The notes under the pieces were generated by a model that was not told the origin of the DNA, ran no database searches, and saw only the letters and a list, made by a program, of their open reading frames with translations. A stretch of DNA of 64,000 nt from positions 4,849-68,848 of the forward strand of contig NW_017265152.1 of the NCBI RefSeq assembly GCF_001638985.1. The letters are read 5' to 3'. A program made the translations under genes and the position numbers. The DNA comes from Phycomyces blakesleeanus NRRL 1555(-) (lineage: Eukaryota > Mucoromycota > Mucoromycetes > Mucorales > Phycomycetaceae). Shown one piece after another: positions 1,159 through 57,800 of this stretch; positions within the stretch are counted from its first letter, which is position 1; each line of letters opens with the position of its first letter.

Positions 1159-4106
1159 TTAATAGTAAATTTTTTTTGGTAAAGAAATCGCGAGTTTTTT
1201 GTTGACATTTTTTGTAGTTTTGTAATCTACTATTGCAACTGTTAGGAGAATCCGATATACTGGCAGGATGCTTTGAAAATCTTGCTTGTAGAATTCATCC
1301 TGTAACAACTCAACTCCTTCTAATTCTCTTGTTTTGTCCGAAGTGGATTTGAACCATTTGACAAATGCAAATACATGCTGACTACTATGGGGATTTCTGT
1401 ATGTTAGAGAAAAAACAGTTGGCCTAAAATTGTGAACAAAAAGGTACTGAATCTCTCCAACATACGCATGTTCCGACCCAGTTCGTTCAGTGAAATATGC
1501 TTGTATGTATGATCCGCGGCCATTCGTGCCAATGCACCCTTTGTAGCTTTGCCCAAGAAGATCAATGGACTTCACCATTTCGATCCAGTCATTGACGAAA
1601 GGTGAGTCATCAATTACATCTTTGCAACCTGAGATCTGTGGATTCTTGTACGCAGCTTGATAGTATCCTACAAGACAATCATATTCATGTTTTGGCATAA
1701 ATGATAATGGTCTTGTTTTCAATGGCAAGGCGGATGGTGGCAGGGGCTCGTTTCCACGAATTATCATTGAAAGATTCTGTGAAGCTTCAAGATATTCGGA
1801 AATTGAGAAAGAGTGAGAGAGGTAGGTGTTGGTGTTGGTGTTGGTGTTAGTGTTGGTATTGGTGTTGTTGTTGTTGGTGGTGAACTTATCAAAAATTTCA
1901 AAACATGCAAGTGCATGCATAGGTTTCAGAAGTCGACGCACAAAATCTCCCTTCCACGACTCTTCAATAAACTGTCTCATAAATGTCGATTCGAACCCGT
2001 TTCTTCGATTGGTCTTGATATTTTTCAGGACACTATTGTACCTTTCAAAGCTGAAAAGCCAATAGCCATAGACGGGCCCAAAGTCAATCATTGTTTGGCG
2101 TAAGTGCAGATGCAGGTGCATGTTGGGAGAGAGAAGGTCCAGGTCGTACAATGTCTCACACCCTTTACAGAATTCTTCTAAGCATTTGTGTCCTTTCTCA
2201 ATGTCTTCTTCAGAAACACTAGGCTTGGTGAAGTATCTGCATGCGTTAACAAACTCTATCCAGTTCTTGAACTCTGGCAACGGCAACACATCCCTTAGAA
2301 CCACAGGAGAGTACACAAGGCACCAAGACTTCCACTCATCAGCCTTCATATAGGGAAATCCCTTGGCAATCTTTGTCCCAAGTGACGTGTAATCGGGCGG
2401 CAACACTACCTTCTCAACAGCCTTTTGCATGGCAACGAGTTTTTTATCATCGATTAATCCATCCGCAACCCATCTCTCCAGCATTCTTTTGGCAGTGCCT
2501 AAGAAAAGATTGTGCATGGGATCGATGATCGTGCAGCGGACAATATCAAAGTACTGAAGACGATGCAGTTCGGACCAGCGAACACCATGTGCAACTTCAA
2601 GACGCTGTCTCTCAGTTGGTTTGGTTGCATTTCTCCTGATCTCTGCATCCTTACGATTGTCATTCTTAGTGCGAAGGAGCCACTTTGAGAAATCAAATCC
2701 AGAATAATCAACGGAACTCGTTCCAGCCAACCTCGAAAATTGACGCTTACACTTGTGGCATGCATTTGTACTTGTATGGGATGTGAACCCACATACTTTC
2801 CTTGCAGCAGGTATATCACAGGCAACCATGAGAAGGGCTGCTCGGATAGAAGTACCATTTGGACATTGGTGAGTCTTAATCTTAATACCTTTGTACAGCT
2901 CCATCAACTCATCCACAAGCGGTTTCAGATAGTTATTTATGTCAGAAGTGCTTGCTTCTTTAGGCCCTGGCATTAACCCAACAAGAATCACGTTCTCCTT
3001 CTTGAACCGCTCACTGCGTGGAAGATTATTGATTGCAAGATATATGGCACCACAGGAGTAGGTAACACCATCGAATGGCTGAAACCAGTCAATGTTCAGC
3101 GTGAGCATGAGTGATCGCTCGGTATCAACAAAAGGTATACCATCTACGTCTACTATCTCATTCCACATCGCACCATCGTACATGTCAAACAAAGTGCTAT
3201 CCATTTTCGGGCCGCGGTTCCATGAGTTGATGTTGTTTTCAAAATCCGGGCATTGAAAAAACGTCTTTAGGGCTTTCTTGACGGAGTGGAATACATATGT
3301 CTTTTTGGGTGCTTTTGACCCGGGACCAGACTTAAACAAGCTGTTGCCACACAAGGAGGTTTTACCAAAATTGGGTGATGTACAACACAAAGGGGCGGCT
3401 TCATTATCATATATGGCATGGCATTTGCTACATGCAACATACTTCTTGACACCACTTGTCAACGCTTCAAATCCGGCCAAACGTTTGAGGCCAGCAACAC
3501 TCACTGGAAGGCGGAATGGGTCAAACAAAAACTGCAGTATCTTGTTGATTATGGCAATCAGGATTACAGCTCCTTCATCCACGACGTATAGCGAGACAAA
3601 AAGAGCAACCGAAATAACATTGAATCGGTGAATCAAATTCAATTCCGAGATTGATTCCAATGAAGAATCTTTAATTTGATTTTTTTTAAAGAACGTTGAT
3701 TAACTCTATTTTCTAGGATATAATATTATCTAAAGCTGTGTACCTACCTTCATCATTGTCCATCTCAACATCGGATTCATCTTCATATTCTTCTTCGTAA
3801 GTGTCACTTGTATACTGGACATTATCTTCAGGGCCAAACACGCAATCCGTTTCAGAGAAAGGTTGGTTTCTTGTCCGTATATCCAAAATGTCATTTGTGT
3901 CATTTAGGTCTACAAAAGCGGAATGTTAGACCCAAATAAATCAATGTAATAAAATAAGTTTTCTTACTTCTAAGCTCAGAATTTATTTCAACATCTTCTT
4001 GTTCAAATTCAAAACTATCTTCCTCTTGATTTACAGGCTCAGAAACAGCACTACTAATTGTATCGCATGTGTCTTCATGGGCTACACATTTATTATTATT
4101 AGTGTT

Positions 4107-10637: not shown

Positions 10638-13600
10638 ATGTTTCCCTCTACCCAAATCCACACCTTAGACTGTCACTGCATTAAATGTCACAACAGTCAT
10701 CAGAAATCTTCTTATGCTGCAAAGCGTACTGAGACTCGTCGTAATAAGAGAGCTAGAGTTGAAGGTACCAGAATATTTGAGAATAGTATAATATATTCAG
10801 TGTTGGTTTTTTGTTTGCTGCGTAATAATCGTTTTAATTTTTTTTTTTATTTTTTATTTATGTTGTTTATTTTTAAACTTTTAATGAAACACAGCCGCAA
10901 TGAGAAACATGGATGTAGATACTGAGGGTAAGAATTTTTTTATTTGAAAGCAGAAAAAAAAACTAATAAACTATTATATTCCATATTTGTAGTAATCCCG
11001 ACTTCTCGTTCCAATTCTGTGGAAGCAATGGACGGTCAGACCAACTCACCTTTTTTGGATGCCGCCTCAATGTTTGACAATGACAGAGACGACAATGATT
11101 TCGATGACAATGTTGAAGATGAAGTCAATGAGATCGAGATTGAGGACTTCAACAGTGAAGGTCAGTGTGAGATATATAAAGAAAACTAAAAGAAAAAGAG
11201 AGTAAAAGAAAAATCAAGTGTTAATTTTTTTTAATTTTTTACAGACCCTTTTGCTGCTCCTGATATGCCCGAAAATGAAGTCCATCAATTCATAGCCATC
11301 TTTACGGTACTATTTGCTTCACGTCATGTTGTTGATAAGGGTGCTGCTGTCTTGATTGAGTTTATCAACAACCTGCTGAGAATCTACGATCAAGATTTTC
11401 AATTACCAACCAGTCTTGCCGGTTTACAAAAAATGACAGGATTTTCTGCTATTACAAAAGGCATCAAGAAATTTGTGGTGTGCCAAGACTGTCATACAGT
11501 ATATCAGGATATCGTATCTGCTCCTCCTTGATGTGTTTCCTCAAAACTTGGTGCCAGGTCTGCATGCAACTGTAATTTGACGAAATCCATGTCTTCCAGT
11601 GCCTTGGTTGCAAAGCGTGAATATGTCTACCAATCCATTAAAAATACATTGAGCATTTTCTTCTGTCGCCCTAGTTTCGAAGCCAAGATTTGTGAATGGA
11701 ATAAGGAGTTGAAGATGGTAGATACTCTGTGCAATGTCTATGATGGCGCGATGTGGAAGGAGTTGAAGGACAAGGAGAGTGTATCATTTGTGTTGGACCC
11801 ACACTCACTAATGTTAACACTTAATATCGACTGGTTCCAGCCCTTTGATGGTGTCACTCACTCCTCTGGTGCTATCTATCTGGCCATCAACAACTTGCCC
11901 CGTGATGAAAGATTCAAGCCAGAGAATATTATTCTTGTAGGTCTCATGCCTGGTCCAAAGGAGCCAAAAACCGACGAGATCAATAGTTACTTGGAGCCCT
12001 TGGTGGATGATTTGAAGCAGCTGTACGTTGGCATGCGGATTCCTACACACGAATTCCCAAATGGTGTCAGTGTTCGTGCTGCACTACTGATGGTTGCATG
12101 TGATATCCCAGCCGCTAGAAAGACAAGTGGATTCACAGCGCATAACAGCACATGTGCTTGTTACAGGTGCAGCCGGCAGTTTACTTGGTTAGGGAGCAGC
12201 AACCAGGTTGATTTCCGTGGATTCAATTATTCTCGTTGGAATATCCGCAGTGGTGCAGAGAGCAGGTTGCATGCTGAGGAGTGGAAGGATGCAAGTACAC
12301 TCTCAGAAAGGCATCAGCTGGAGGTCGAAAATGGTGTTCGATGGTCGCAGTTGCAACGCCTTGGATACTTTGATCTAGTACGTGGAACGATCATTGATCC
12401 CATGCATAATCTTTTCCTGGGGACGTCTAAGAGATTAATGGATTGGTGGATTGATGAGAAGACAATTGGACCTGAAGAGTTTGCTTCGATGGAGAAAATT
12501 GCAGAGACAATGGTACTACCCAGAGATTACACCACACTGACAACCAAAATTGGAAAGGGCTTCAGCTACATGAAAGCGGACGAGTGGAAATCATGGGTTC
12601 TGGTTTATTCTCCTGTCTTGTTGCATGGTATTCTCCCTCCATTACAATTCAAGAACTGGATGTATTTCGTTGATGCATGCCGATACTACGTAAAGCCCAG
12701 CATTACTTTTGATGAGATCACCACTGCCCACAGCCTGTTAGAAAAGTTTTGCAATGCATGTAACGTAGACTATACCGCCACTATTCTCACCTGCAATATG
12801 CACCTACACCTCCATCTTCATGAATGCATTCGTGATTTTGGACCAGTGTATGGTTATTGGCTCTTTGGGTTTGAGCGATACAATGGTATTTTAAAGAATT
12901 TCAAGACAAATGGCAAAGACGGTTTTGAGGCGACCTACATGAAAAATTTTGTTCAGAATGCGTATAAGGGTGATTATGTCAATGCTGTTCTTAAAAGTTC
13001 TAGCCAGATCCCCTTCATTCACACTCTGTCTAAACTTGTTACAACCTCCATACCTGCCGCCACAGTCACCACTCTCTCCAGTCGCCCATTCAGATTGCAA
13101 ACATTCGTTCAAGGCTACACTGATCCTTATAATCCACCCAAGGGTAACGAGCCTCTTCCTCCTTCTACATTTCCTCTAAAATACAAAAAGCCATCAGTAA
13201 TGGATGATTCCGACTATCTCCATTTACTTGAATATTACCAAGTCGTTTACAACCTCCCAGACCTTGCCAGCTATCAGGACACGTCCTATAATCGCCCAGC
13301 ACTTGACAATCAAATCATCAAATTGAAGTCAATTGACATTCTTGGTCAACACTATCGAGGAACAAACAACAGCACAATCAGTCGCGGATCACTTGTTCAG
13401 GCAAAGTTTGTTGGTAGTAATGGAAACATTATACTTGGATTTGCTGGACAAATTCAGTATCTTTTTACACACTCCTTCCAACTTCCACCCACGCACAATC
13501 TCCATCTGACTCGCATGGTTCATGATCATCAACATGTATTCGCATTTATCAAGTGGTTTTGTACTTCCTCTGATAGGTCGCGTGAGGATGACGGTGTTGA

Positions 13601-13751
13601 ATTTTGTTTGCCCACGTTCTCTCCTGATAGCTACCATAGCATTATACCTGTACATCGCATCTTATTAGAGGTTGCTACAGCTACTATTGCGACAAGTAGA
13701 AATGTTAGCAAAATGCTGGTAATTCCATTGCCAAAGAAGCTATATGCTTAA
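10638..13751 (+). pseudogene. P2 Plavaka-type transposase with a single nonsense codon
   Basis: Exons 10638-10764, 10895-10927, 10993-11160 and 11245-13751 sum to 2835 nt (945 codons), fully in frame. The only defect is TGA at 11529-11531, at a position followed by C-V-S-S-K-L-G; the rest is open, so inactivation looks recent. Exon 1 has a cysteine pair motif (CHCIKC) and a basic end; exon 3 is acidic. The catalytic exon shows N-I-D-W-F-Q-P-F-D-G, D-I-P-A-A-R-K, D-P-M-H-N-L-F-L-G and M-H-L-H-L-H-L, then a C-terminal V-I-P-L-P-K-K-L-Y-A shared with P1 and P3. It converges on the companion gene with 139 bp between stops. Confidence 0.82.
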
Positions 13752-17769: not shown

Positions 17770-20511
17770 TGAAATAGGTTTATTTGCAGCCAATTGAAGT
17801 TTCTGGTTAGTTTGCATTTTGCAAGGAGAAAATTGTTGATGTCTAGAATAAGTATAATGGGTTCGAATTTGTCTGGTGTGGTAGTGAATGGTACAAAGAG
17901 ACAGTCGCCAGTTTCTCTTGGAGTATTCTAATATATATGGCTACGGTTCTGTTATATGCATTTGCTACGAGTTGTGGATGGTCAATTGTACCAAACTAAT
18001 GCTGTTCAGGGAGGGGCTAGTGTTTGTCTTTTAGGCTGATGATTAATGGGTTTGTGGATGCAGACATATGGCCGTGCTTCATTCTTTCTCAATAATGAGT
18101 GTGTTGATATTTTAAATAATTTTCTAACATTTTGTCTTTGACTTCAGGCCATCGTTCCTAGTTCTGATATACTTCTATTGCTATTGCTCTATAGCCACAA
18201 TTGCCATCTGGTTCTGGAAAGAATACCTGAGATATTTGGTGTGAGCAATTGTAAGATTAGTCAGAAGTGTATGATCACATAGTGAACCTAGATTAATAAT
18301 TTTTTTAATGCTTTTTGCTGTTTTTCTAAAGATAATTCATGTCTAAAAAATCGAAAAAAGTTGAATGAGTCAAATCTGAACAATATGTTATAATAAAGAC
18401 TTACTTTTTTTTTGTTGTTTCTTTTTTTTCTGCTTCAAGACAGTGCTCTAGGGCAATCATTTTTCTTTTTGTATTTTTAGATCTGTCTTTGATGGCTTCC
18501 ACTACTATTGGATCATTAAGGTTCTCAAGTTTCTGCTTGGAGTCTAGTTCTATTATTTTGTTAATGTATTCTTCGAAATGCATTTGCTGTTGTTTGCTTT
18601 GGTTGTTGATAAGTATTTAAGTAACCCATTCAAGCTTATATGCGAGTTGGGGTGTTATTGTGGTGATTTTAGTGATGTTTTTAGGTACAGGTAATGCATT
18701 GTGAATAATTGAGTGATTTGTACATAATTATATATAAAAAGAGAAAATAGTTTAATAACATATATATATATATATTATCTTCTCCTTCTAAGTAGTTTAT
18801 TCTCCATTGTCTGGGAATGTAAGAAATTGGGATTTTTTTATATTGTGCAAGTTGATGGTAGCAGGCCAAGAGATAGTTGTAGTTAATGAGGCATTTGCAC
18901 TCTTTTGTGAGTTTTTCAGGTATAATTGATTTGACAAGTTCAAGTTTAATGTGATCCATTACAAAATGACAAATTTTGTGGCAAATATCATTCAGTTTAC
19001 CAAAAGAAGTTTCAAGGGCATACTTCAGAGAAGCATGTGAACTTTCTGCATGGTTGGAAGTGCAATTTCCAAAGTGAGGATGCTTAAAAACATAGGTGCT
19101 TGCCCCATTCTCTTTGTCATGTATATTTTTGATAACGTAAATAAAAAATAATGTTATTATTTATTGTTAACAAACTGTTTTCAGCAAATATAACAGCACT
19201 TTGCATACCTCTCAAGGAAAGCTTTCGTACTTTTTTCTTGATCTTTACAATTGTCTTTTGCAAACCTGAGATATGCATCAATCTCTTTTTTCTCTTCTTT
19301 GGAAGTGGTGCACTTCAATGTAATTTGGTCAAGATAACTGGCTAACTCGTTCAAGAAGTCTCTCTTGTCCCCATTCTTGTCTTTCTTCATCATTGACAAT
19401 AGCTGCTTCTTAAAATTATTCTTAATGTGCTTATAGCACAACAGCTGCTTACACTCAGGGAAAGCATTTGTAATTGCATTCCTCAATGCTTTCTCATTGT
19501 CAGTGATAAACACACTTGGAAGTAGAAGTGTTGCGGTGGTTGTGTAGCTGCTGCTGCTATCATTAACATCTGGCCAGACAGAATTGTGCAGACAGAAAAG
19601 TACCCATAGATAGTTGTCTATCGTTTTGTGATCTACCCAGGCTCCAGCAATTGGGAAAGTCTTCATAGTTGTATGGGGGGTTCCACTTACATTACTAATA
19701 TCAACAATGTTGACATATGTCATTTGGTGACTATTTGTCTTTTATATAGCATCTATTACAATGGTTTCTGGCAGTCTTCTTACTTTGTCAAAGGCATTTT
19801 TATGGATGAAAAACAACATGTTGATTTTGTTTACCTTATTATCACCAATACTGTACCGGACATAAAAGTCTAATTCTTGCAATGCAGTAATGAAACTAAA
19901 TATTTCTCTTCCTTCTTCTGGCTTTCTGAATTGTTGTTTGATATTTTTGATATCTTGACAGATAAAACTGGTGTACTCACTTCTCTTCAAGTTATTGAAG
20001 ATGGTGGATACATCATCGTTTTCTTCAAGGTGTTGGACAACAAGAATAATAGCCTCAGGTTCAAGCTTTCAATGCATAGCATATGCTCTGCGGTCTTCTA
20101 CAATCTGATGATTGTGTTTTGCCTCACAGGAGTGGACTACAATCTTTTCTTCTTTCTTTTTTGAGGCATACACAAAACAAGAACAGTCACTCTTTTGGGT
20201 ATCCTTTACTTGTTGTCTCTCCCACTCAGAAATAGGGGTTTTTTGGTTGACAGAGACTTTTGGAACAATTTTTCAGTCTTTCTAGTATCTCTATACTTTT
20301 TATAGTGCTTACAGATTATTCTTATACAGGTGCTTGAGGAAGAATAAGTAGTGAATGCAATATTATGCTTAGTACCATATGCTTTTGTGGCTTCACAAAA
20401 GGCTACAGTTGAAGAGAATTCTCTTCCAATAAGAAATATCGAGTTGAACTTGGTCAGGGCAGCATTATACTTCTTTGAATAAGTCTCACTAACAATGACA
20501 TAGTTATTGGT
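17770..20511 (-). pseudogene. M1 MULE transposase with SWIM and C-terminal OTU domain (decayed)
   Basis: Order from the N-terminus: a FAR1/WRKY-GCM1-like zinc domain (20450-20080; D-C-S-C-F, S-C-E-A-K-H-N-H); an MULE DDE core (19990-19190; V-I-D-A-[stop]-K-T-N, then F-I-T-D-N-E-K-A-L and C-Y-K-H-I); T-S-N-H-A-E-S-S-H-A-S-L-K (~19080-19000); a SWIM-like finger E-C-K-C...A-C-Y-H (~18900-18840); a charged helix-rich linker (18583-18401); then an OTU-like protease domain around 18240-17770 with P-D-G-N-C-G-Y-R-A-I. The expected OTU histidine region reads N-F-N-W instead of N-x-H-W. Several stops are present (TAA in the DDE motif, TGA near 20075, TAG after the OTU nucleophile) and at least one frameshift near 20210. 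Not functional. Confidence 0.75.
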
Positions 20512-28970: not shown

Positions 28971-28986
28971 TGGTTTCTTGGTGTAG
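28971..28986 (+). repeat. Target-site duplication of the LINE, left copy (5' end of tRNA-Val)
   Basis: TGGTTTCTTGGTGTAG is identical to 34204-34219. It contains the first 15 nt of tRNA-Val and half of the A box. The bases outside the two copies differ, so the duplication is 16 bp. Confidence 0.92.
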
Positions 28987-29372
28987 GTAAAAGATTTTTA
29001 TTGAAAGGCTAGTGGGCACACGCACTATAGAGCTATTGCCCGCCTTTAAGAGTACAAAAAAGAATAATAGAAAGAAAAAAAATCCAAGGGGGAAAATGGG
29101 AAAAACTAGAAAGGGAAACTAAGCTAGGGGATATAAAAAAAGGGAGATAAGGATAAAATATGAGGCATGTATGAAACTCATGCAATAAATGGAAACTAAG
29201 ACTAATATAGATCTAAACTAAAAATAAAAGGAGATGGCCAGTCTCATTTGGGTAGCCAGTTCAAGAAGAGTTGTCCTCTGTCTGTTGCAGCATGATCAGC
29301 AAGATCAACCCCAGAGAAACAGATCTGTTCTATATCCAACATGATTCTACAAAGAATTGGCCAAGTAAAGAT

Positions 29373-32300
29373 CTAGAAGGCATTGTTCTTGTTGTTTTTA
29401 AGTTTCTTCAGAGGCAGCATATTGAGTACATAATCAATTGGATTAGGTTGTACTGTAGAATAGAGATGGAGACGAATTGCAGCTCCAGTACACTCAATAA
29501 CATGATGACGGCTGGTGGTATGCAATCCTCAGGAACAAGGTTGAGGACGTCCAGTGAGCCACCCCATACGCCAACGTATGAATCTACTACGTTCATAGTT
29601 AGTCATGGGAAGCCAGAGAATAGGGTCAACACCAAGAGAAGGACGGCAAGCAGAGAGAAGTATTTGTTGAGAGCGTTGCAAGAAGAGGGCTGGTTCAAAA
29701 ATGAACGAATGGCATGCTTGCAAGCTTTAGAATCAGCATTCTGACGATTAGAGAGAGACAACCAAATGGGATTAGCTAAAAGCTTAAACCATTGGTGTGC
29801 TGGGTTTGTAAGAACAGGTCGAAGAAGAGTAAACAGAGCCTCATCAGGCAACCAGAAAGCACGATATACAAACTTGAAACCAAGAGTCAAGATCCTCTCC
29901 CTCATGCTAGGAAGATTCCCAAGGTGATGGAAAACAGATGTAGAAGATGTGGAGTGACCTCCAAAAATCATGCGTAAGCATGTGTTCTGGGCCTTTTCAA
30001 GCACAGCAACTTGTTTGATGTTGAAGCAGGATATTGCTAGGCCATACTCAAATTGTGGATGAATAAACTGGCGATACAAACGAATTGAGAGTAGACGTGA
30101 CAACTCAGTGTGATTGACACCAAGTGATTGAAGAGCACACATGCTGTTAATAGCAGAGACACAATTACGAGAGATGAGAAGAGATAGATCAATAGTCCCC
30201 TTTGCTGAGAAGGGAACACCAAGGTAAGGAAACGAATGAGCATGAGGAATAGGCACATTGTAGAGAGAGAATGACAAAGGAGAAAGAGAACAAGAATAGT
30301 GAAGGATCATGCACTTGGTGGGACTCCAATGATATCCTAGCTCTTGAGAATGTTGTTCAGCAGAATTCAGAATGACAGGCATAGCTTCTGGTGTAGCAAT
30401 GATGGCAACATCGTCAGCAAAAAGTAGTGAATTGACTAATTGATCATTGAGTCTTGTGGCAGCAGTCTGATTAAATACTGTGTTACAAAGTTCCCCTGCA
30501 GCACGAAGAGCAACTGGTAGAGAATTTATGTACACGGAATAAAGGTGGGGAGAAAGCACAGATCCTTGCATAACGCCAGTCAATGGTTGGAATGATCTGG
30601 ATGTTGCACCAGAAAGCAACACCTCAACTTGAACATTGTCAAAAAGACTTTGTAACAAAGCTAACATAGCATCAGAGGCAAGAGGACGTAACGATGTCCA
30701 TACTACAGAACGATCAACAGTGTCATATGCAGACTTGATATCAAGAAAAGCCAAGACTGGTGGTGCTTTGAATAGAGCTGTGTGACGACGGACCATCTCA
30801 TGGAGACAAAGAACTTGATCAAGGGAGCTACGTTGACGTTGGAATCCACCCTGTGCAATGTCAATTGTTGGAGACACATCTTCAAGAGGAAACTGTAGAC
30901 AATATTCCATGGCTTTTCTCAGGATAGACGTTAAGCTAATGGGACGATAGTTAGCAGGGTCATGAGTATCACCCTTTTTAAAGATGGGGACAATTTGTGC
31001 AGTACGCCATGCAAGAGGTGCAGAACCCCATTGCCAACAAAGCTGGAACAAAAGACAAAGAACAGGAGAGACTTGCTTAACAATTGGGTGAAGCATTTCA
31101 GCACGAAGATGGTCAACACCAGGAGCCTTGCGTGTAGGAAGCTTGAGAATTGCACTCTCTACAGAAAGATGAGTAAAAGGACACGATTCATCAATTGCAA
31201 TTGGTGATGAAATCATCACTGTCTGGTCTGGAGGGCGGCGTGCAGGAAGAAATTGACCTGAGAAAATCTGTTGAAGATGATCAGCCATTTTGTTAGCAGC
31301 TACTTGAGGTCCACCCGGATCCACAAAGACAGGACTGGTTTGACGATGGCTTTTAATATGTTTCATTGTTGCTGTGGTCTTTGCAAAGTCTTGTGTTGCC
31401 AATTTGTTGCAGAATTCTTTCCATGTTTCACGTCGACGACGCTGGACTGATAACCTAACAGCATGACATGCATCCTGATGGCGCATCCAGCATATAGCCT
31501 TCTGCAAACCACTAGAATGACGCCAGCGTTGGTAGCTGCGTTCTCTCAGATCCATTGCTTCTTGAAGGTCCACTGACCAGAACCAGTACTTTTGCATGGT
31601 ACGTGGTGTACGACGACCAACAGCAGTGTCCAGAGCATCATAGATAGCTTGAGCAAAAGCAGAGCACAGAGAATCTACAGGAGGAGGAGAAGAAGAAGAA
31701 AGGAAAGCACTGAACTGCTCTGTCAGATTGTCCAATGACCCAGAAGCTGTATCAATGTAGATCTTGAGAGTGTCAGGCTGAGCAAGCTTGGAAAGATTCC
31801 AAAGTAGGCGCGGATGATTAGTAGGGGGAGGGGGAGGTGAAACATAGGGAGTGAAAGTGAGGTTGACCATTTTGTGATCAGAGCCTAAAGAAAGATCAGA
31901 ACGAATTTGCATAGAAGGATTGAGAAGGGGGGACGTAGAAAGAAATAAATCAATGACACTGGAACGTGAGGTACCAGAGCCACCAGAAAGAAAGGTAGGA
32001 ATACCAAATGCAAGTAATTCATTCCAACAAGTGAGACCAGTTGCCTGGATCCACTGAAGAAAAGAAGTTCCTCGCGAAGTGATAGCATGGTCACCAAGAA
32101 AGGATCCCATACGTGAATTAAAATCACCACAAAAAATAGTGTTAGAAGAAGGAATAGAAGAAGAAGAGAGGGGGAGGTCATAAAGAATAGAAATTGCATC
32201 GTCATTAGAAAGAGAAGGGGGAAGATAAATGCAATGAATAAGACAATCAAATACAATACAAGAAAGAACATAAGGAGAAGAAGAAGGAACAATAGAAATG

Positions 32301-32539
32301 GGGTAAGGGAAAGAAGGATTTACAAGAAGAGAAATACCCATGCAGTCACGGCTAGCATTGGGGACAGACTGACCATAGGTATGGTACTGCTGCCAAGAAG
32401 TAGGATAACGATGGGGGGACAAAAGCCACGTTTCAGTGATAAAAAGAAGGGAAGTAAGTGGAGCATATGAAAGGATCGTAGGTATGGTCTGTTTTGCAAG
32501 ACCATTTGCATTCCATAATGTAATTGTTACTGGATTCAT
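29373..32539 (-). pseudogene. LINE ORF2: APE-like endonuclease and reverse transcriptase, C-terminus broken
   Basis: The open part is 978 codons from ATG at 32539. Endonuclease/exonuclease/phosphatase motifs: W-N-A-N-G-L at the N-terminus, T-E-T-W, G-D-F-N-S-R, S-D-H-K. Reverse transcriptase motifs: N-Y-R-P-I-S-L, L-D-I-K-S-A-Y-D-T-V, Q-G-S-V-L-S-P and L-L-F-A-D-D. Near 29650-29700 the frame shifts by one base; in the new frame the C-terminus continues (R-M-G-W-L-T-G-R-P-Q-P-C), then TGA at 29531-29529 replaces the second Cys of a terminal zinc knuckle (C-S-stop-G ... R-H-H-V-I-E-C), and that frame ends at 29373. No RNase H domain was recognised. ATG overlaps the ORF1 stop (ATGA). Confidence 0.85.
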
Positions 32540-34089
32540 AGATCAGAGAATGAAGGGATGGTGATGCTGGCAGTATGTATAGAGATGTCCAAGTCTTTTT
32601 TGGTGGGTCGTGGGGGAACAATCTCAGCTAGTTGGTCATCACTAATCCATCCCTGAGAGCAAAAGGAACGTGCAACAGCAAACTTGACAGGAGCCCTAAT
32701 GAATTCAATGGCACGTAGCATACGATCATTGTGAACATGTATAGCTTTTGTTGCCCTATCATCAAGTGAAAGAGAGGCCAGAGCTGGGTCACGGAGGTGA
32801 ACAGGGTCCAGAGGATCAAAGTTATCCAAAGTAGTAACACCATAACTCGCCAAGATAGTCTTGAGCTCAGGAGCATACTCATTATGTACAAGCATTCCCA
32901 TCACCTTACGATCAGGATAGTGGAGATCCAGCACACGTGCATTGTCTATCTTTAATTTCCTAAGACGTTGACGTTGAGTACTAATGGGGAGACGGATAGC
33001 ATTAGGTACATAAACAATTTGAAACCCCTGATCAGCATTTTCTTTAATTGTCATGCCACGAACAACAGCAGCAATGGCCCTAGCAGTTGGAGCCCTTTTA
33101 CGTGGTGTTTTAGAAACGAAAGTCTTGGTGGGTTCAGTGGAATGATGGGTCGGGGATGCAGGAAGTGATGGAAAATCAGCCTGAGAAACAACTGGAACAG
33201 AGGCAGCAATAGTAGCATATTTGGATGCTGCAGCACCAACAGAAAAATCAACATTCTCCTTTGTCAAACGTGCAATAGTGGCGTTTGCAGTAGCAAGAGC
33301 CTTACGCAACTCAATGTTCTCTTTTTGAACAGCCTCCAATGCAGAAAGACGTTCATCATAAGCCTGGAAACGGTCCCAAATATCCTGAAGAGTGGGCATT
33401 ACAGTTGGAAGAACAGGTGCAATGTCAGATTCAATTTCATGGATATCTGCCATGGAAATACTATGACCCAAGATGGAAACAGAAGGAGACACAACAGGCT
33501 CACTTGCAGAATGAACTTCAGGAATTTTGTGTTGGACTGCATTGATCAAAGATTGCATGGATGAAGCAGTAAATGTTGCACCACATTTGCATTTAAACTG
33601 TGGGCTACCAGTACGAGAAGTAGACCCATTAGAAACAATTTTGCCTGTAGTCTGGCAATGTGAACAGGACAAAACATTGTGCAATTTTTTAAAGTCTGCC
33701 TTGAGGCCAGACAAAATGAGAGCAGTGGGAGTAGGGCGGCCAGTGGAATTAATCACCTGTTTTTGGGAACCAATCATTGTTGGAGGAGCTTGAAAAAAAA
33801 TTTCGTGGGAACCAGGAGCAGGCAAAGCAGAAAAAGAAAGGTCTGAAACTGGGACAAAAAAGTGCGAAGTTGATGGTAAAACACCAGAACCACCTTCAGA
33901 GAAGGAGAAAAGAACTGGAGACGATAACAGAGGTACAGGCAATTGAGATGTAGTTGGAGATGCTGACAATCTTGAGTGATTTCGGCGCAGATGTGAAGAT
34001 GATTGCAATGATGATTCCAACAATTTGAAAAAAAAGTCAATTAAAAAAATGAAAATTGGTAGATATATAAAAACAACTATGACAATCAA
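32536..34089 (-). CDS. LINE ORF1, RNA-binding/chaperone-type protein
   Basis: 517 codons from the first ATG at 34089; the first ~30 residues are hydrophobic and may not be translated, and the Met near M-I-G-S-Q-K-Q is an alternative start. A zinc-ribbon-like C-S-H-C ... C-K-C-G lies at about residues 140-175. A coiled-coil stretch (D-R-F-Q-A-Y-D-E-R-L-S-A-L-E, then N-I-E-L-R-K-A-L) follows. The C-terminal third, with D-A-R-V-L-D-L and Y-P-D-R-K, resembles a compact RNA-binding domain. The stop overlaps the ORF2 start as ATGA, suggesting stop-restart translation of ORF2. The protein itself is intact although ORF2 is not. Confidence 0.75.
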   Translation of the reverse strand: MIVIVVFIYLPIFIFLIDFFFKLLESSLQSSSHLRRNHSRLSASPTTSQLPVPLLSSPVLFSFSEGGSGVLPSTSHFFVPVSDLSFSALPAPGSHEIFFQAPPTMIGSQKQVINSTGRPTPTALILSGLKADFKKLHNVLSCSHCQTTGKIVSNGSTSRTGSPQFKCKCGATFTASSMQSLINAVQHKIPEVHSASEPVVSPSVSILGHSISMADIHEIESDIAPVLPTVMPTLQDIWDRFQAYDERLSALEAVQKENIELRKALATANATIARLTKENVDFSVGAAASKYATIAASVPVVSQADFPSLPASPTHHSTEPTKTFVSKTPRKRAPTARAIAAVVRGMTIKENADQGFQIVYVPNAIRLPISTQRQRLRKLKIDNARVLDLHYPDRKVMGMLVHNEYAPELKTILASYGVTTLDNFDPLDPVHLRDPALASLSLDDRATKAIHVHNDRMLRAIEFIRAPVKFAVARSFCSQGWISDDQLAEIVPPRPTKKDLDISIHTASITIPSFSDL

Positions 34090-34203
34090 TCCTGCTGCAA
34101 AAAACAGATAGGTTTGATATAGTAGTTATAGAGAAAAAGAGGTAAAAGTAAAACTGTGCTGGGTTTGAATTCAAAACATAATTTGGTTGTGGAAGAGAGT
34201 GTG

Positions 34204-34219
34204 TGGTTTCTTGGTGTAG
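34204..34219 (+). repeat. Target-site duplication of the LINE, right copy
   Basis: TGGTTTCTTGGTGTAG, identical to 28971-28986. It forms the first 15 nt of the intact tRNA-Val gene plus one upstream base. Confidence 0.92.
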
Positions 34220-34278
34220 TTGGTTATCACGTCTGTCTAACACACAGACGGTCGCCAGTTCAAGTCTGGCAGAAATCA
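34205..34278 (+). tRNA. tRNA-Val(AAC)
   Basis: 74 nt, no intron. Acceptor GGTTTCT pairs with AGAAATC (one G-U). Anticodon stem TCTGT/ACAGA closes a 7-nt loop CTAACAC with anticodon AAC. T arm GCCAG-TTCAAGT-CTGGC is perfect. The discriminator base is A; CCA is not encoded. Internal Pol III boxes: A box TGGTGTAGTTGG (34212-34223) and B box AGTTCAAGTCT (34257-34267). The 5' flank is now LINE sequence, while the first 15 nt were rebuilt by the LINE target duplication, so the gene should still be transcribable. Confidence 0.95.
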
Positions 34279-34313
34279 TATTTACCTCTGGTGTCAGAGT
34301 GTTGACTATTATT

Positions 34314-35898: not shown

Positions 35899-37907
35899 TC
35901 ACTCTCTGTTCAAACAGCGAAGAAAGAATGAAATGACATGGTTAATCCAACCCAAACAGTCCAAAAGGGTGACAGTTTTAGCTGATTCTGTAATCCTTAA
36001 GATGAGCCTGCCTGACTCTGTATTCTCTTCTCTGTGGATACCAAACTTGATCTTGGACCACATTTCCTCAATTGGATTCAGAAAAGATGAATACACAGGA
36101 AGATATGCACACTTGTACCCATGGGAAGAAATAAAGTCTTTCACCTCATCAGCCTTATGGATAGGAGCATTATCCATGATGAGATAACATCCTTGCATAC
36201 TCTGGCTGTCCAGAACGTCCATTGTATGACTAAGAAAGTCGAGGTAGTGCTGGGCTCTGGTGCCAATTCGGCCATTCACCTCAACATTGGTGTAGATGTC
36301 TAACTTTCTCTTCTTCTTGGTTGCGACTGCAGTGGGTTTCTTCAACGAGAGGCTGACAATCCCTCTCTTGCACATTGCACCAAGGATGGTGATGGACACA
36401 CCTCTCTGCATCGGGACAGTTGTCTTAGCCGGGGTGCCACTGACGGAATGACCAAAAGTTCTCTTGATATGCATATTGAAGTCTGCTTCATCAATAAACA
36501 CACAGTTCGACAGATAGTTGAAATCCGCATGTTGTTGCCACTCCAAAATGTGGTCTCGTCTCATCTCAATTGTGCTGATGTTGTCTCTCTTCTTGGGCAG
36601 CTTCTCCAACTTCTTCATTGTCAGGGCACACTTCTTCACTGTTGTAAATGAGTATTGACTACTGCTGTAATTGAGAATAAGTCTGAAGGAAATAATATAA
36701 GGCCTCAGCTATTCCAGTCAAAGGTGTCTACCGATTACTTTATTATTTAACACACAGGTTTAGCATGCATGATAGTGATTATATTTCATATGATGATATC
36801 ACCATAATATGGGATACATCAGTGGATTATTATAAGCATAATTATAACTCATAAACACATTTACTTTCGATGTTAATACTTCATTGGGACTACACACATT
36901 TATATAATTAATCATATATTAATTATCCCAAAATCACATTGCTCTGATTAAGGCTCAGATAGGATCGATTACCTGACCCCAGTCATATAATTTTCTCAAT
37001 CCAAAACAATATAAATAGCAGTAGTAGTTCAGTGTAGGAACCTGGTCAAACTTTGATACAAAATCTTTCTCAATAAACAAAACCTACACAAGTTCTCACG
37101 AATCTTCGTTCCTAATCTCAAATCTTCAATTCTTCCTCTTAAAAACTTCTTCAACTTCAACCACCACAACATTCACCAAGTGCTTCTGGATTGCTGATTT
37201 GGTAATCTGCAGCCCAGAGAACTCTTCCATGACAGCTATCCTTGCTTGTTCCAAGGTAGCATCTGGTTTATTTTCGAAAAACTTTAAAAAAAAGCAGAGT
37301 GTGCCTGGAACAACTTTTGGTTGCCATGTTTTTGTTCTTTAAGTGCAGAAACCTCCTCAACCTCCATCGTCTCCAGCCCATTAGACTCATCAGTCTCCAC
37401 TGTGGCAGCATCAAAATCGGCCTGGATCTTCTCTCTGGCCAACCTGACATAGTTCTGGGCAGTCCGGACATTGATGCCCATTTCCCTGGCAGTGGCAGCA
37501 GCAGTCTGGTTTTCCGAGAAAACCAAGGAGAAGAGCTTGTTCACCTGGTTTTGGTTGTACTTTTGGTATGAACCTCGACCTATGCTTTCTGCAGTGGGAA
37601 CAGAATTAGGGTCGACCTTCTCTGGCAGATTTGTCTTCGGCTTCTGTGCAACAATGGTTTTGATAGTAGCCTTGTTGACTTCAGTTGGCAAAAAACTTCT
37701 AAGACTTAAGAGGTTTGTGACTGCTGGGTTTCCGGCCGAGGTACGGGTCCATTCCATATTGGCATGGTTGACAAAGACATCTGTCACAGATCAGAGTACA
37801 ACTTCTCCATGCATTTTATTGACAATCTCTTGGTTGAAATTGCACAAGGGGTCAAAAGCAATTCCAGAAAACTGGGTTTGGTCTGCAGAACTGCTGTGAC
37901 TGACCAT
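35899..37907 (-). pseudogene. IS630/Tc1-like DDE transposase, interrupted by intron, stop and frameshift
   Basis: Start ATG at 37907. TGA at 37793-37791 breaks the N-terminal part (V-V-L-stop-S-V-T-D). A helix-turn-helix region follows (A-A-A-T-A-R-E-M-G-I-N-V-R-T-A-Q-N-Y). A frameshift sits in the A8 run near 37285-37292. The next frame runs to H-L at 37177, where a 538-nt intron (37176-36639, GTGAAT...ACAG) joins it in frame to K-K-C-A-L-T-M-K. The catalytic part has F-I-D-E-A-D-F-N, I-M-D-N-A-P-I-H and L-N-P-I-E-E-M-W, with 34 residues between the last D and E (DD34E). The intron is long for this genome and may hide an insertion. Confidence 0.75.
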
Positions 37908-42110: not shown

Positions 42111-43738
42111 GTAAATTCAAAAACCGGGCCAGCAAATGTAAAATTTGTACCCTGCAACTTATATCTTCTTGAGTTCTTATTCTTTTGCAATAGTTTTAAT
42201 ACACTCTAGGACATCTGTTAAAGAGCTACAACATACTATGCTAGTATAAATATATATATAGTATTAATAAAAAGTTATATGAAAAAAAGTGGAAATTTTC
42301 AGTGGCCCAGTTTTTTAGGTAAAGGTATCTTTTTTTATTTTTCATTAATAAGATACCCTTTCTTCAAAATGCATTTATGCATTCTGCTTTGCATAAATTC
42401 AATTAGATTCTTGCACATATCCTCTGGGATACTATCCCACTCATTCTGAAAACGAGACCACAATTCTCTCATTGAGCTAGCTGGCTCTTCATATTGGTAA
42501 AGTTTACCCTTTGTGTATGCCCAAAGGTTTTCAATTGGATTAAGGTCAGACGAAAATGGTGGGAAATCAATGACCTCAATCCCCTCTGTCTTCAACCACT
42601 TTCTGGTATTGGCTGCAGTGTGTGACCAGGCATTATCATGCAAAAACATGATATCGGACTTGATGAGATTCTGCTTCTTCAAGGTCTTCAGTAAGCCCTG
42701 CTCCAAAACTGTTACGTATTTTGGGCTTGTCATGGTTTCATTGCTCTTGAGAAGCTCTCCGTGACCTCTGGACGAAAAGCATCCCCAAACCATAACGTGT
42801 CCTTCAGCATAAACAGGGGAAGTCTTACCCTTATATTTTTTAATTGCTGACTTCTTCAACTTCCACCTCCATCTCTTTCCATCCGAGCCAAAGCGATTCA
42901 CCTTACATTTGTCTGAGTAGACAACACACTTCCAGTCTTCCATGGTGAAGTTGATATAGTTTCTTGCAAACTCCATATGCTGCTTGCGGATAGTGGGGTT
43001 TGTTTTTACCTTTGGAGGTGATTCCAAGGTACAGATGAACCCAGATGCTTTTAGCAAGGTGTGGATTGCTGGAGCCTTGACAGCAAAACCTTCATCACAT
43101 AGCTGTCTCTCTGCCTCTGTTGTTGTCATAAATTCCTCATTTAGGAATGCATAGATGATATGGTGGGCAAGCCTTTCATTGATTTGGGCAGGTCTACCCC
43201 CAGGAACTGAGGTAGAGATGTTCAATTTTCTTTGATATCTCTTGACAGAAGTCTGCAAAACACCAACAATCTTTGCTACCTCGGCTATAGACTTTCCATG
43301 TCTAAGTTCAACTTCAATTGAGAGTATTTTGTCGCGTGAGATGGGAGACATTTTTGTTTTAAAGTTGAGCAAAGGAACAAGGAAAACTCTGAAAAATTCA
43401 ATATAATATATCTATTTTGTTTGCATGATTGTGATGTAATGACAAGACACACTCCATATAAAAATTATTATAAAGCAGTTCTGCATTGAAAGTAAAGAAA
43501 TAATGCTTTACTCTATTTTTTGGCCCATACCTAAAAAACCGGGCCACTGAAAATTTCCACTTTTTTTCATATAACTTTTTATTAATACTATATATATATC
43601 TATACTAGCATAGTATGCTGTAGCTCTTTAACAGATGTTCTAGAGTGTATTAAAACTATCACGAAAGAATAAGAACTCAAGAAGATATAAGTTGCAAAGT
43701 ACAAATTTTACATTTGCTGGCCCGGTTTTTGAATTTAC
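42111..43738 (-). mobile_element. Complete Tc1/mariner-like element (1628 bp)
   Basis: Flanked by TA on both sides (42109-42110 and 43739-43740). Terminal inverted repeats of about 215 bp (42111-42326 and 43521-43738) begin GTAAATTCAAAAACCGGGCC and end near CAGTGGCCCAGTTTTTTAGG. They differ at only a few positions. The single gene on the minus strand is intact. Confidence 0.93.
42335..43372 (-). CDS. Tc1-like transposase, intact (345 aa)
   Basis: Uninterrupted frame. N-terminal paired HTH: I-L-S-I-E-V-E-L-R-H-G-K-S-I-A-E-V-A-K-I, then V-K-R-Y-Q-R-K and the G-R-P-A-Q AT-hook-like motif. Catalytic D: V-V-Y-S-D-K-C; second D: F-L-H-D-N-A-W-S-H; E in S-D-L-N-P-I-E-N-L-W, 34 residues after the second D (DD34E). 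Length is usual for Tc1. A second Met (M-S-P-I-S-R-D at 43351) is an equally good start. Intact TIRs and frame suggest recent activity. Confidence 0.93.
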   Translation of the reverse strand: MLNFKTKMSPISRDKILSIEVELRHGKSIAEVAKIVGVLQTSVKRYQRKLNISTSVPGGRPAQINERLAHHIIYAFLNEEFMTTTEAERQLCDEGFAVKAPAIHTLLKASGFICTLESPPKVKTNPTIRKQHMEFARNYINFTMEDWKCVVYSDKCKVNRFGSDGKRWRWKLKKSAIKKYKGKTSPVYAEGHVMVWGCFSSRGHGELLKSNETMTSPKYVTVLEQGLLKTLKKQNLIKSDIMFLHDNAWSHTAANTRKWLKTEGIEVIDFPPFSSDLNPIENLWAYTKGKLYQYEEPASSMRELWSRFQNEWDSIPEDMCKNLIEFMQSRMHKCILKKGYLINEK

Positions 43739-54885: not shown

Positions 54886-57800
54886 ATGAATCCTATTAAT
54901 AAAGAAATCCGCTTTTTCAATGGAAAGGAACATTATCCTGTCCAACAACCTCTTCTTGTCTCACCAGTTAATGGTTACAGTGACATGACAATGGCAATTT
55001 CAAAGATGCAGGAATATGCACTTTCCAACAATTTTGCACTTGTAACTAGAGATAGTAAACCAACTCGAGTGTATTTGAAGTGTGCCAAGGGCGGTCATTA
55101 TAAGAACACACGGAATATTGAAGACAGCAAATGCAAGAGAATTCCGTCTAGTGGAAAGACTGGATGCCCCTATCTCATTAAGGTATCCTACAAGAAGGCC
55201 GCTAAAGGATATCTTCTTTTGAAAGCCACCAATGAGATTGAAGGCTACCACAATCACCCTCTTGATGATGACTGCCTGGAATCTACCTTGAAAGGTCGTT
55301 TGTCAAAGGTTACTGTCAATGATGCTAGGGAAATTATGAAGCTTGTTGAGACCAAAACCAAGACTCGTGAGATCCAAAAGGCGATCAATGAAGAGGATAA
55401 TGTCAGCCATAAGTTGTATGTGAATGACATCAACAATATCAAGGCTGCTTTTGCTCGTACTACTGCTTCCACTTCTCAGGATGCAGGTACTGAACTTGTT
55501 AAAACCATAGAAGCTAAGGGATATCTTGTATGCTATAATGCCGGCAAATATGAATCTCTTAAAAGAGTATTTTTCTCACACCCAAAGATGCTAGAAAGAG
55601 CTCATCGCTTCCCAGAAGTCATGCCTATCGATGCCACCTACTTAAACAATAATTTGGAAATGCCTCTTGTATGCGTGGAAGGTGTCCATAACCTTGGGGG
55701 GGACACTCTTAAATCGTTTCCCATTGCCTTTGCCTGGATTTCAAATGAGAAACAAGAGACCTACATTTGGTTCCTTGAGCAGCTCAAGACATTTGTTTTT
55801 GAAAACAAGAAAAGCAGTTCTCTATTTGTAACAGACAAATGTATGGCCTTAATGAATGCACTTGACATTGCATTCCCAAAAAATGTCAAATTGTTATACT
55901 ACTGGCATATGTTGAATAGCATTGAAAATGTCTTCACTGGAAAACTCAAGTCAGTTGCAGAGAAAGAGGTCCTTATGGAGTATGTGAACTCCATGATTCA
56001 CAGCAGTACCAGAAGGGATTTCGAGGTTGCGTTGATGAAGTTCAATGCAGTATCTTCTGGTTGCGAAGTAGATGAAGGAGGGTCCAAGGTAGATGCATTG
56101 GTTTACTTTGCCAAAAGATGGATAAAGTGCCAGGAGAAGTGGGTAGGATACCTGACCAGCCAGCAAATGCATTTTGGGTGTACACTACCCAAAGAGTCGA
56201 GAGCGCACACCAAGCTTTGAAAAGAGGGATATCAGCAATTTCGTCTTTAGGGCTTGCATTTGAAGCTGTCAACTCCTATGTAGACAGGCTCAAAAGAGAC
56301 TTCAATGCTATAAAAATCAGGGAATCAACAACTGTTGATGGTTTGGTTGGCCGCAACAAGCAGCTTTCCAGGCTTTTTATGAAAGTCTCTAAGAGAGCAT
56401 TGCTTGTTATTGATCAAGAACTTCGCTTGATCAATAGAGACGATGAATTTTGTCATTGCAAAAACAGGTTTGAGTTCAACTTGCCCTGCAGACACTCGCT
56501 GCCAGCTGGAAGGGAGCTCACCCTTGATGATGTTCCTGAAAGATGGATCATAAATCCTGTTCTAAAAGAGACATCTTTTGAAGAAAGTTGTACAGTGCAT
56601 GTAATTGCCGAGAGGCCAGAAGAGTGGATACAAGAGATTGTAAAGCTTGAGGCTCTTTTCTGCTCTTGTGAGGGCAGCCAGCAAGTGGCCAACCTCCTTC
56701 AAAAGATCAAGAAGGTTACTTCTGAATTCGAAGGCAAAACTGGGCACCCTTCGATTAACTTTCAAGCCCCAGAAAAAAATAAATATCCTGGCAGAAGAAA
56801 GGGTGGTGCACGTCCTAAATACCTTCCCAAAGACTTTGGTCGGGCAAACTGGAGGAAGATCAGTGTTCCGTTTGGTCATGTAAGATAAAAAAAATATAAC
56901 ATAACAAAGTACTAATATGTATCTTGAAATACTAGGCCGGACTTAAGGCAATGGTTAGGTTAAGAGCTAGAACAAGAGATGGAAAGCCTGCAGCTACACA
57001 AAAAACGAAATACAACAAAAAACAAAATAAAAGCAAAAAAGAGTCTCTCGATCTAGGTAATATATACTTTTATTTTATAGTGTAATTGAATTCATGAAAA
57101 AGAATCTAACCTTATACTAATATGCTTTTTAGTCGATGCCACTAAAAACAAAACAAAAAAAATAAAACAAGAGCCTCTCGACCCAGGTAATATTCTTTCT
57201 CATTTTTCAGTGTAATTGAATCCATAAAGAGAAATATTGTTGTATACTTATATGCTCTTTAGTCGATGCCACAAAAGAAATAGAGTTTAAAAGACCCACT
57301 ACAGCTCAAGAAGATTACCAATATGACTATCGCACCTCTGTTGGCAAGAGGGTTAAATTTCAGCCCGGTTTTCCTTTCTCTCATGAGATAGTCGATGACG
57401 TTAAGGGTGGGTTTAACCCTACTGCTGATGGATGGTGTGGTTTTTGGGTCCTTGCCCATTTGATCTATAAAGATCAAGAAAAGTTCCCTCTTGTGAAAAG
57501 AGATATGCTTGCTACCCTTCCAAAATACAGCAGCATTTACGCCAGCACGTTTGGAGCCAATGTCAAGCAATCAGAAGACATTATAAAGCATGTTTCTGAT
57601 CTCTGCATCACCAACTCCAACTCCAACTTCATCTCAGCGTGTTTAGATGCCAGTATGTGGTTTAGCATACCCAACTGTGCTCAACTAGCTGCAGACACCT
57701 ATAAGCGACCAGTCTGCATCTACTCAGACAACCCCAACATCCCTTCCATATTGTTTCTTCTATTCACCCTTCTAAAAAAACATACCAAAACATCAACAAC

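Follow-up and report, generated by a model that had tools for sequence, protein, structure and literature searches.

An L1-like long interspersed nuclear element (LINE) of Phycomyces blakesleeanus NRRL 1555(-) is inserted inside a tRNA-Val(AAC) gene, between nucleotides (nt) 14 and 15, and is flanked by two copies of nt 1-14, one of which belongs to a complete tRNA gene. It lies in a 64,000-nucleotide stretch of contig NW_017265152.1 (positions 4,849 to 68,848; "the window"), which is C19:4849-68848 in the numbering of the 53.5-Mb, 60-contig assembly searched here. Most likely, with a probability of about 0.9, the tRNA gene was nicked after A14, reverse transcription was primed at the nick, and a cut of the other strand at the tRNA 5' end led to the gene being rebuilt. 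Self-repairing insertion of this kind is real and general in the Phycomyces genome, and is new among site-specific LINEs.

The window locus

Position, orientation and duplication can be read directly from the DNA. The initial annotation described a 16-bp duplication that exactly flanks the LINE, and comparison within the 64-kb window bears out the repeat: TGGTTTCTTGGTGTAG is exact at 28971-28986 and 34204-34219, with identity ending at both borders. Allowing up to two mismatches, GGTTTCTTGGTGTAG occurs in the window at these two flank sites only, with 0.13 occurrences expected. The unit of duplication is, however, tRNA nt 1-14. A 16-bp unit is ruled out because the base at -1 differs among copies (stub G versus gene T at C1:3054398/3059632 and C15:300259/305494, so that the T is not common to them) and because nt 15 is supplied by the LINE in tRNA-Ala genes. 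The 14-nt tRNA head is thus the duplication proper, and the two other matching bases are most simply LINE ends. The sole tRNA gene of the window found by ARAGORN is tRNA-Val(aac) at 34204-34279, or 34205-34278 by pairing; an Rfam scan of the window gave nothing at the gathering score. The insertion point (34218|34219) falls inside the A box, the limits of which follow established tRNA numbering. The features of the locus are as follows.

28972..28985, + strand: distal stub, the second copy of tRNA-Val nt 1-14 (target-site duplication) at the LINE 3' end; exact match to 34205-34218
28986..34204, - strand: LINE (non-LTR retrotransposon), 5.2 kb, full length, antisense to the tRNA; from sequence, terminal bases ambiguous by 1-2 nt
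28997..29002, - strand: AATAAA, 17 nt upstream of the stub in the LINE sense; from sequence
29603..32539, - strand: ORF2, 978 aa in this copy, C terminus shortened; open reading frame (ORF)
30212..30979, - strand: reverse transcriptase domain (RVT_1); Pfam, E 4e-23
31865..32242, - strand: APE-type endonuclease (part matching Exo_endo_phos_2; domain at about residues 1-230 of ORF2); Pfam
32536..33777, - strand: ORF1, 413 aa, CxxC-type cysteines; no Pfam family above cut-off
34205..34278, + strand: complete tRNA-Val(AAC) gene, of which nt 1-14 are the proximal duplication copy; ARAGORN, pairing and sequence
34212..34223, + strand: A box (internal promoter); from sequence

The tRNA-Val family genome-wide

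Searching the genome with the LINE DNA gave at least 57 matches (the best 37 of 47 candidates), and among the matches listed six span the whole LINE at 98-100% identity, the window copy included. A pattern for the LINE 3' end that contained no target sequence hit 25 places, and its backward control none. With the target added, the pattern returned the same 25 places at 0-2 mismatches (control: 12 at up to three mismatches). At all 25 the junction was read directly, and each 3' end adjoins a stub of tRNA-Val nt 1-14. The stub is an exact 14-mer in 23 cases, either GGTTTCTTGGTGTA (20) or GGTTTGCTGGTGTA (3), and the other two differ by one and two bases. Copies with unrelated flanks, which were looked for as a refutation of targeted insertion, are absent from this set.

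A census of tRNA-Val genes by pattern, which diverged genes could escape, gave 16 AAC and 2 CAC genes without mismatch and 2 TAC genes; a nineteenth row, with three mismatches, proved not to be a tRNA. LINE sequence stands directly against nt 1 in all 16 tRNA-Val(AAC) genes and in one of the two tRNA-Val(CAC) genes, and over 74 nt no base differs among the 16 AAC genes, nor between the two CAC genes. Since every AAC gene is occupied, an insertion that broke its target would have left no intact tRNA-Val(AAC) among those found; as each of the 16 has been rebuilt, the repair very likely works. The proposals that the element enters tRNA coding sequence and leaves a complete gene behind therefore hold well beyond the window. 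Upstream of the two tRNA-Val(TAC) genes, whose A box reads TGGTCTA, no LINE was seen within the less than 110 bp read.

Both tRNA-Val(CAC) genes also have a diverged LINE 3' end upstream in the opposite orientation (by search at C1:2587945-2588071; by eye at L043, C21:163778). This end stops at a decayed, inverted stub of a tRNA head, with 4 bp left to the gene; the layout looks like the trace of a past invasion of a partner tRNA in head-to-head orientation.

A second lineage at other tRNA genes

The ORF2 search revealed a further set of LINEs at 45-46% identity, arranged in head-to-tail clusters (best 47 of 297 candidates). These occupy Ala, Thr, Ile, Lys, Tyr and Phe tRNA genes at the same position as the Val family. 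Seven of their 3' ends, fetched before the target was recognized, all stop at a tRNA head, and a target-free 3'-end pattern hit 39 places (control 0), all 39 adjoining a TRGCTYA stub. A wider pattern yielded 99 rows, 24 of the Val family and 75 others (control 3); it contains the A-box form and so is no test of the site. For 63 of the 75 non-Val rows, counted by hand, the next same-strand tRNA gene within 60 kb is of the isotype of the stub. Old stubs carry 1-3 changes.

With tRNA genes located by patterns, a stub was found upstream of at least 12/15 Ala-AGC, 8/12 Thr-AGT, 7/14 Ile-AAT and 4/10 Tyr genes. Two genes that lack a stub match nevertheless have a LINE 5' end at nt 1 (Ala C10:1561308 and Thr C46:74312), and the counts by isotype are therefore lower bounds. 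Upstream of five further genes (Ala C3 and C25; Thr C2, C27 and C33) no LINE end was seen within the less than 60 bp read. The five Ile genes that were read all begin GCCCGCTTAGCTCA, which is identical to two of eight Ile-side stubs, the six others being 1-2 bases off. A LINE-like 5' end stands at nt 1 of the Ile genes on C28 and C2 and at none of the other three; the latter are compatible with 5'-truncated copies.

Stubs reading GCCTTCTTGGCTCA were considered as tRNA-Met, but their genes carry the anticodon of Thr-AGT. Two tRNA-Tyr genes with a short intron were recognized by sequence at L066 (C4:2960808) and L079 (C44:159891), where ARAGORN as run found neither. Two further junctions, at C9:822487 and C44:139821, have diverged or unassigned stubs.

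Break position and A-box word

The second lineage fixes the break. In the Ala genes nt 15 is A (TAGCTCAAATGG), whereas the LINE junction reads TAGCTCA followed by GGTTAAAG, that is, by G; the break thus lies after A14, and GG are the first bases of the cDNA. In both lineages, the full-length 5' junctions that were read begin at tRNA nt 1, so the duplication runs from the first base of the mature tRNA to A14.

A 45-bp 3'-end remnant at C4:2574727 lies outside any tRNA (ARAGORN finds none), between 16-bp direct repeats that end in TGGCTCA at the nick point. In this copy, duplication and A-box word are separable from the tRNA itself. The split of the two lineages by A-box word is likewise a direct observation, and the sequences make it likely that the LINE endonucleases are specific for an A-box sequence, TGGTGTA in the Val family and TRGCTCA in the second lineage. 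The tRNA-specific endonuclease suggested in the initial annotation would likely be better described as specific for the A-box sequence. Such words are common: the window holds seven TRGCTCA and seven TGGTGTA on both strands, or about 5,850 of each if scaled to the genome. The word alone is consequently not enough; that copies outside tRNA genes are rare among those found would be due to an RNA polymerase III (Pol III) context or to the loss of copies that did harm.

Structure and relatives of the LINE

The LINE is an APE-type (L1-like) non-LTR retrotransposon, with an APE endonuclease and a reverse transcriptase in one ORF2; PF14529 and PF00078 both score above cut-off in the same protein. It has the traits of such elements, namely a lack of long terminal repeats (LTRs), frequent 5' truncation, a fixed 3' end and a target-site duplication. 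The arrangement is not that of R2, in which a restriction-like endonuclease follows the reverse transcriptase, as the APE domain is N-terminal. ORF1 is present in all eight long copies scanned, and the start of ORF2 overlaps its stop as ATGA. Two copies (L002 and L003) retain an intact ORF2 of 1,098 aa; a Pfam scan of the 1,098-aa protein gave no RNase H match. A structure model of L002 ORF2 has a mean pLDDT of 88.4, and its best solved relative in a fold search is human LINE-1 ORF2p, followed by R2; ORF2 sequence matches are likewise led by human LINE-1 ORF2p. The endonuclease part of the model aligns to L1-EN with a TM score of 0.72 by target, and to TRAS1-EN with 0.78. In an alignment of 39 ORF2 proteins (38 of 83 search matches and L002), Asp139, Asp197 and His222 are invariant and Asn10, Glu36 and Asn141 nearly so; these six correspond to APE catalytic residues.

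In the LINE sense, the window copy ends in ...CTTTTACC, without a poly(A) tail, and the 3' ends at the stub in the two lineages are CTTTTACC and CTTTAACC. Compared with shuffled sequences, the 3' end folds somewhat better in the Val family (z -2.1) and not in the Ala family (z +0.8), the Val-family 5' end scoring z +0.3; as the lineages differ, no common RNA structure is claimed for the 3' ends. Ten of 19 Val-family copies with a readable 5' end are 5'-truncated: nine of the 19 start at position 1, six at 110-136 and four elsewhere. A further eight 5' ends lie at or near position 1. The cluster of six (L007, L008, L009, L014, L015 and L016) spans 27 nt, and none of 200,000 uniform draws was as tight. 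Such a cluster would be accounted for by an additional RNA start or by a shared stopping point of the reverse transcriptase.

At least 83 proteins were found with ORF2 (7,978 candidates scored). Among the matches listed, those named down to E 1e-24 come from Phycomyces, Rhizopus, Mucor, Cokeromyces, Parasitella, Gilbertella, Thamnidium, Dichotomocladium and Circinella, all genera of the Mucorales. A 59-row tree of relatives from the search and long-branched outgroups, without reference clades, was built by a quick method with SH-aLRT (Shimodaira-Hasegawa-like approximate likelihood ratio test) support. In it the Val LINE and the Ala LINE fall into separate groups, of 18 and 26 rows respectively (support 98 each), and both groups contain named Rhizopus and Mucor members. 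If the shared site was inherited, the A-box habit would predate the split of those fungi. Alternatively, the habit may have had two independent origins, and the rooting of the tree is unsure because the outgroup branches are long.

Stacks of copies

Stacking, too, is observed directly: 10 of the 25 stubs are preceded by LINE sequence, giving head-to-tail stacks in which a 14-bp stub separates the copies. Such an arrangement would follow from repeated hits on the rebuilt gene. A solo-LTR-like insert splits the tRNA-distal copy of two stacks (C13:1294761-1301643 and C1:3241969-3249136), and diverged relics in the same orientation (72% and 76% identical) lie outward of a stack on C28 (L029) and of a single copy at C1:3054413 (L026). 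Both observations fit an order in which the youngest copy is next to the tRNA. No readable stub was seen beside the LINE end of either relic.

The LINE-breaking inserts begin with TGTTGTGA or TGTGGTGATCC and end with CAACA or CACA, which gives them the look of solo LTRs.

C13:1300757-1301388: solo-LTR-like insert
C5:450062-450590: solo-LTR-like insert
C28:89864-103043: solo-LTR-like insert
C1:3243290-3243834: solo-LTR-like insert

In each of two stacks on C17 (877906-888576 and 939792-950247) one copy matches a copy of the other stack in its kinds of stops and its score, which suggests exchange between the stacks; the decayed copy lies distally in one and proximally in the other. Seven copies (L010, L011, L014, L015, L017, L024 and L027) run into N stretches, and the genome may therefore hold more or longer stacks than were counted.

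DNA-transposon genes account for six of nine other ORFs of the window that were scanned, with two tnp2 (PF02992), two DDE_3 and two MULE transposases.

1159-3204, - strand: transposon ORF (Pfam-type scan)
11589-13751, + strand: transposon ORF (Pfam-type scan)
19181-19723, - strand: transposon ORF (Pfam-type scan)
35899-36618, - strand: transposon ORF (Pfam-type scan)
42335-43351, - strand: transposon ORF (Pfam-type scan)
54886-56220, + strand: transposon ORF (Pfam-type scan)

Proposed mechanism

From the insertion products we infer target-primed reverse transcription, the strand and order of the nicks, and the reading of the A-box word by the endonuclease. ORF2p would nick the tRNA-sense strand after the A-box adenine A14, and the free end at the nick would prime reverse transcription on the RNA of the LINE itself, starting at ...ACC. 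A cut of the other strand at the tRNA 5' end, followed by fill-in, would then duplicate nt 1-14 and regenerate a complete tRNA gene. As the rebuilt gene is again a perfect target, insertion can be repeated between the older copy and the tRNA, and new copies entering there would produce head-to-tail stacks with 14-bp stubs and the youngest copy next to the tRNA. A Pol III complex or open chromatin likely raises the efficiency, given how common the A-box words are and how rare copies outside tRNA genes are among those found.

AATAAA precedes the stub by 17 nt in the Val family (window copy) and by 20 nt in the Ala family (L084), so close that the RNA would include the stub. A transcript running into the stub would carry the complement of the nicked tRNA head and might base-pair there; R1/SART-type elements are known for such read-through pairing. 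A broader picture can be sketched tentatively, and we hold it to be somewhat less probable than an even chance: a Mucorales-wide clade of LINEs at the tRNA A box would be self-repairing and self-renewing, with stacks kept in order of arrival and the transcribed stub acting as an RNA guide to the nicked head. If the guide reading is true, this parasite carries a sample of its own target as an address label.

Evidence against and alternative explanations

Several observations weigh against the proposed mechanism or narrow its reach. The nick site and its strand are read from insertion products. Judged from the Val family by itself, either 14 or 15 bp may be duplicated, as nt 15 is G in both gene and LINE, and the value of 14 bp is for this reason taken from the second lineage. 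The LINE 5' ends at occupied genes vary slightly (GTGT, GTGTGT, GTCGGTTTG). In the stack at C17:939792-950247 the decayed copy is the one nearer the tRNA, contrary to a simple age order. In the second lineage, 12 of the 75 rows are not followed on the same strand, within 60 kb, by a next tRNA gene that matches the isotype of the stub, and some genes with the TRGCTCA word are little used (Phe 1/11, Lys-CTT 4/22, Lys-TTT 0/3 and Thr-CGT 0/2, all lower bounds). Finally, several tRNA-Val loci lie within larger duplications, so that 25 junctions are not 25 independent events.

The last point bears on a different history, in which the insertion took place once, long ago, and segmental duplication and unequal crossing-over then multiplied the tRNA-LINE unit with its junctions. 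The flanks of several tRNA-Val loci are indeed alike, and copies of the two C17 arrays agree in their kinds of stops and in score. The flanks upstream of the 15 outermost stubs sort into about eight groups, and the stretches that match are 74-94% alike. However, eight long LINE copies are 97.8-98.7% alike, well above those related upstream stretches, 5' truncations vary copy by copy, and the same junction is found in tRNA genes of seven amino acids and in two LINE lineages whose ORF2 proteins are 45% identical. At paired loci the LINEs are 98.5% alike, against flanks of 89% (L001/L004) and 94% (L003/L008), and L003 and L008 begin at LINE positions 1 and 123. LINEs closer than their flanks, with unequal truncation, are most simply read as insertions after the locus was duplicated, although conversion among LINE copies may also have made them alike. 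A spread by duplication is on this evidence improbable as the general explanation. The 400 bp downstream of many tRNA-Val genes (L031-L048) also share blocks that are about 70-98% alike, so that a repeat or old locus duplications are present there too; the loci were thus duplicated in part.

If the Pol III complex recruited the LINE to the 5' flank of the tRNA, in the manner of the dictyostelid elements TRE5 and NLTR-A, the insertion would lie just upstream of the gene and not inside it. The final layout could be taken for this, as the LINE runs antisense, like TRE5, and stops 0 bp upstream of nt 1, close to the 2-6 bp given for NLTR-A in portions of PMC5006619 and PMC5911963; the abundance of A-box words and the rarity, among the copies found, of any away from tRNA genes also favor it. 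The far end of the LINE nevertheless carries tRNA nt 1-14, which puts the break inside the coding sequence, the two lineages differ in the A-box word they use, and one copy lies at a TGGCTCA that belongs to no tRNA. Recruitment may supplement the choice of sequence and does not replace it; as the whole explanation it is unlikely, if less so than inheritance of one old insertion. A chance insertion or an assembly error at the window site has next to no credibility. Assembly is imperfect in LINE-rich places, as some copies break off at stretches of N, but 25 of 25 and 39 of 39 3' ends lie at the same kind of site on many contigs. Chance is ruled out by the restriction of the repeat to two sites in the window, together with the same junction at every Val-family 3' end.

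Comparison with known systems

The LINEs R1, R2, TRAS and SART combine a sequence-specific nick with target-primed reverse transcription, a fixed duplication, and junctions that need no poly(A). Insertions of R1 and R2 inactivate the rRNA unit, whereas the target gene of the Phycomyces LINE is restored and can be hit again. Two LINE lineages can likely accumulate in this way inside tRNA genes without harming the cell. Safe-harbor insertion that is repeatable and leaves the gene whole would be a useful model for site-specific gene writing, and three questions become accessible: by what means the endonuclease of a LINE recognizes a word of a Pol III promoter, what positions the cut in the second strand, and whether the stub guides the next jump.

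A LINE inside a tRNA gene with rebuilding is not described in the portions of PMC3706591, PMC5006619, PMC5911963, PMC7377519, PMC2699053 and PMC11258239 seen, and no description of such an element with gene rebuilding and stacking was found in the open-licence literature searched. In Rhizopus oryzae, Ty3-type LTR elements often co-localize with tRNA genes (PMC2699053). Grem-LINE1 of Mucor is, like the present element, an L1-like LINE of Mucoromycotina with ORF1, AP endonuclease and reverse transcriptase (PMC7377519); it is described as pericentric, and the term tRNA is absent from the main text of that paper. Dewa, a zebrafish LINE, is site-specific for a tRNA unit, but its target is the spacer of tRNA-Leu and not coding sequence (PMC3706591). 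Dada DNA transposons do insert at fixed sites inside tRNA and small nuclear RNA (snRNA) genes, some at the A-box TAGCTC (PMC3706591). In contrast to the endonuclease-reverse transcriptase protein and 14-bp duplication of the Phycomyces LINE, they have a DDE transposase and a 6-7 bp duplication, which would be too short to restore a tRNA gene.

The nearest parallel is with the dictyostelid LINEs, which are also of APE type and tied to tRNA genes, and of which TRE5 is likewise upstream and antisense. TRE5 inserts about 50 bp upstream of the tRNA, TRE3 about 100 bp downstream, and NLTR-A of Dictyostelium purpureum 2-6 bp upstream (PMC5006619, PMC5911963), whereas the Phycomyces LINE ends 0 bp from nt 1 and breaks its target after nt 14. 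TRE5-A and TRE3-A end in oligo(A), a tail that the Phycomyces 3' ends lack, and NLTR-A has an RNase H domain, for which the Phycomyces ORF2 gave no Pfam match. The Phycomyces LINE duplicates tRNA sequence; the available portions of those two papers report no such duplication for dictyostelid LINEs. This duplication ends exactly at the 5' end of the mature tRNA. Known tRNA-targeting retrotransposons avoid harm by landing beside the gene, whereas the Phycomyces LINE lands inside it and repairs the break.

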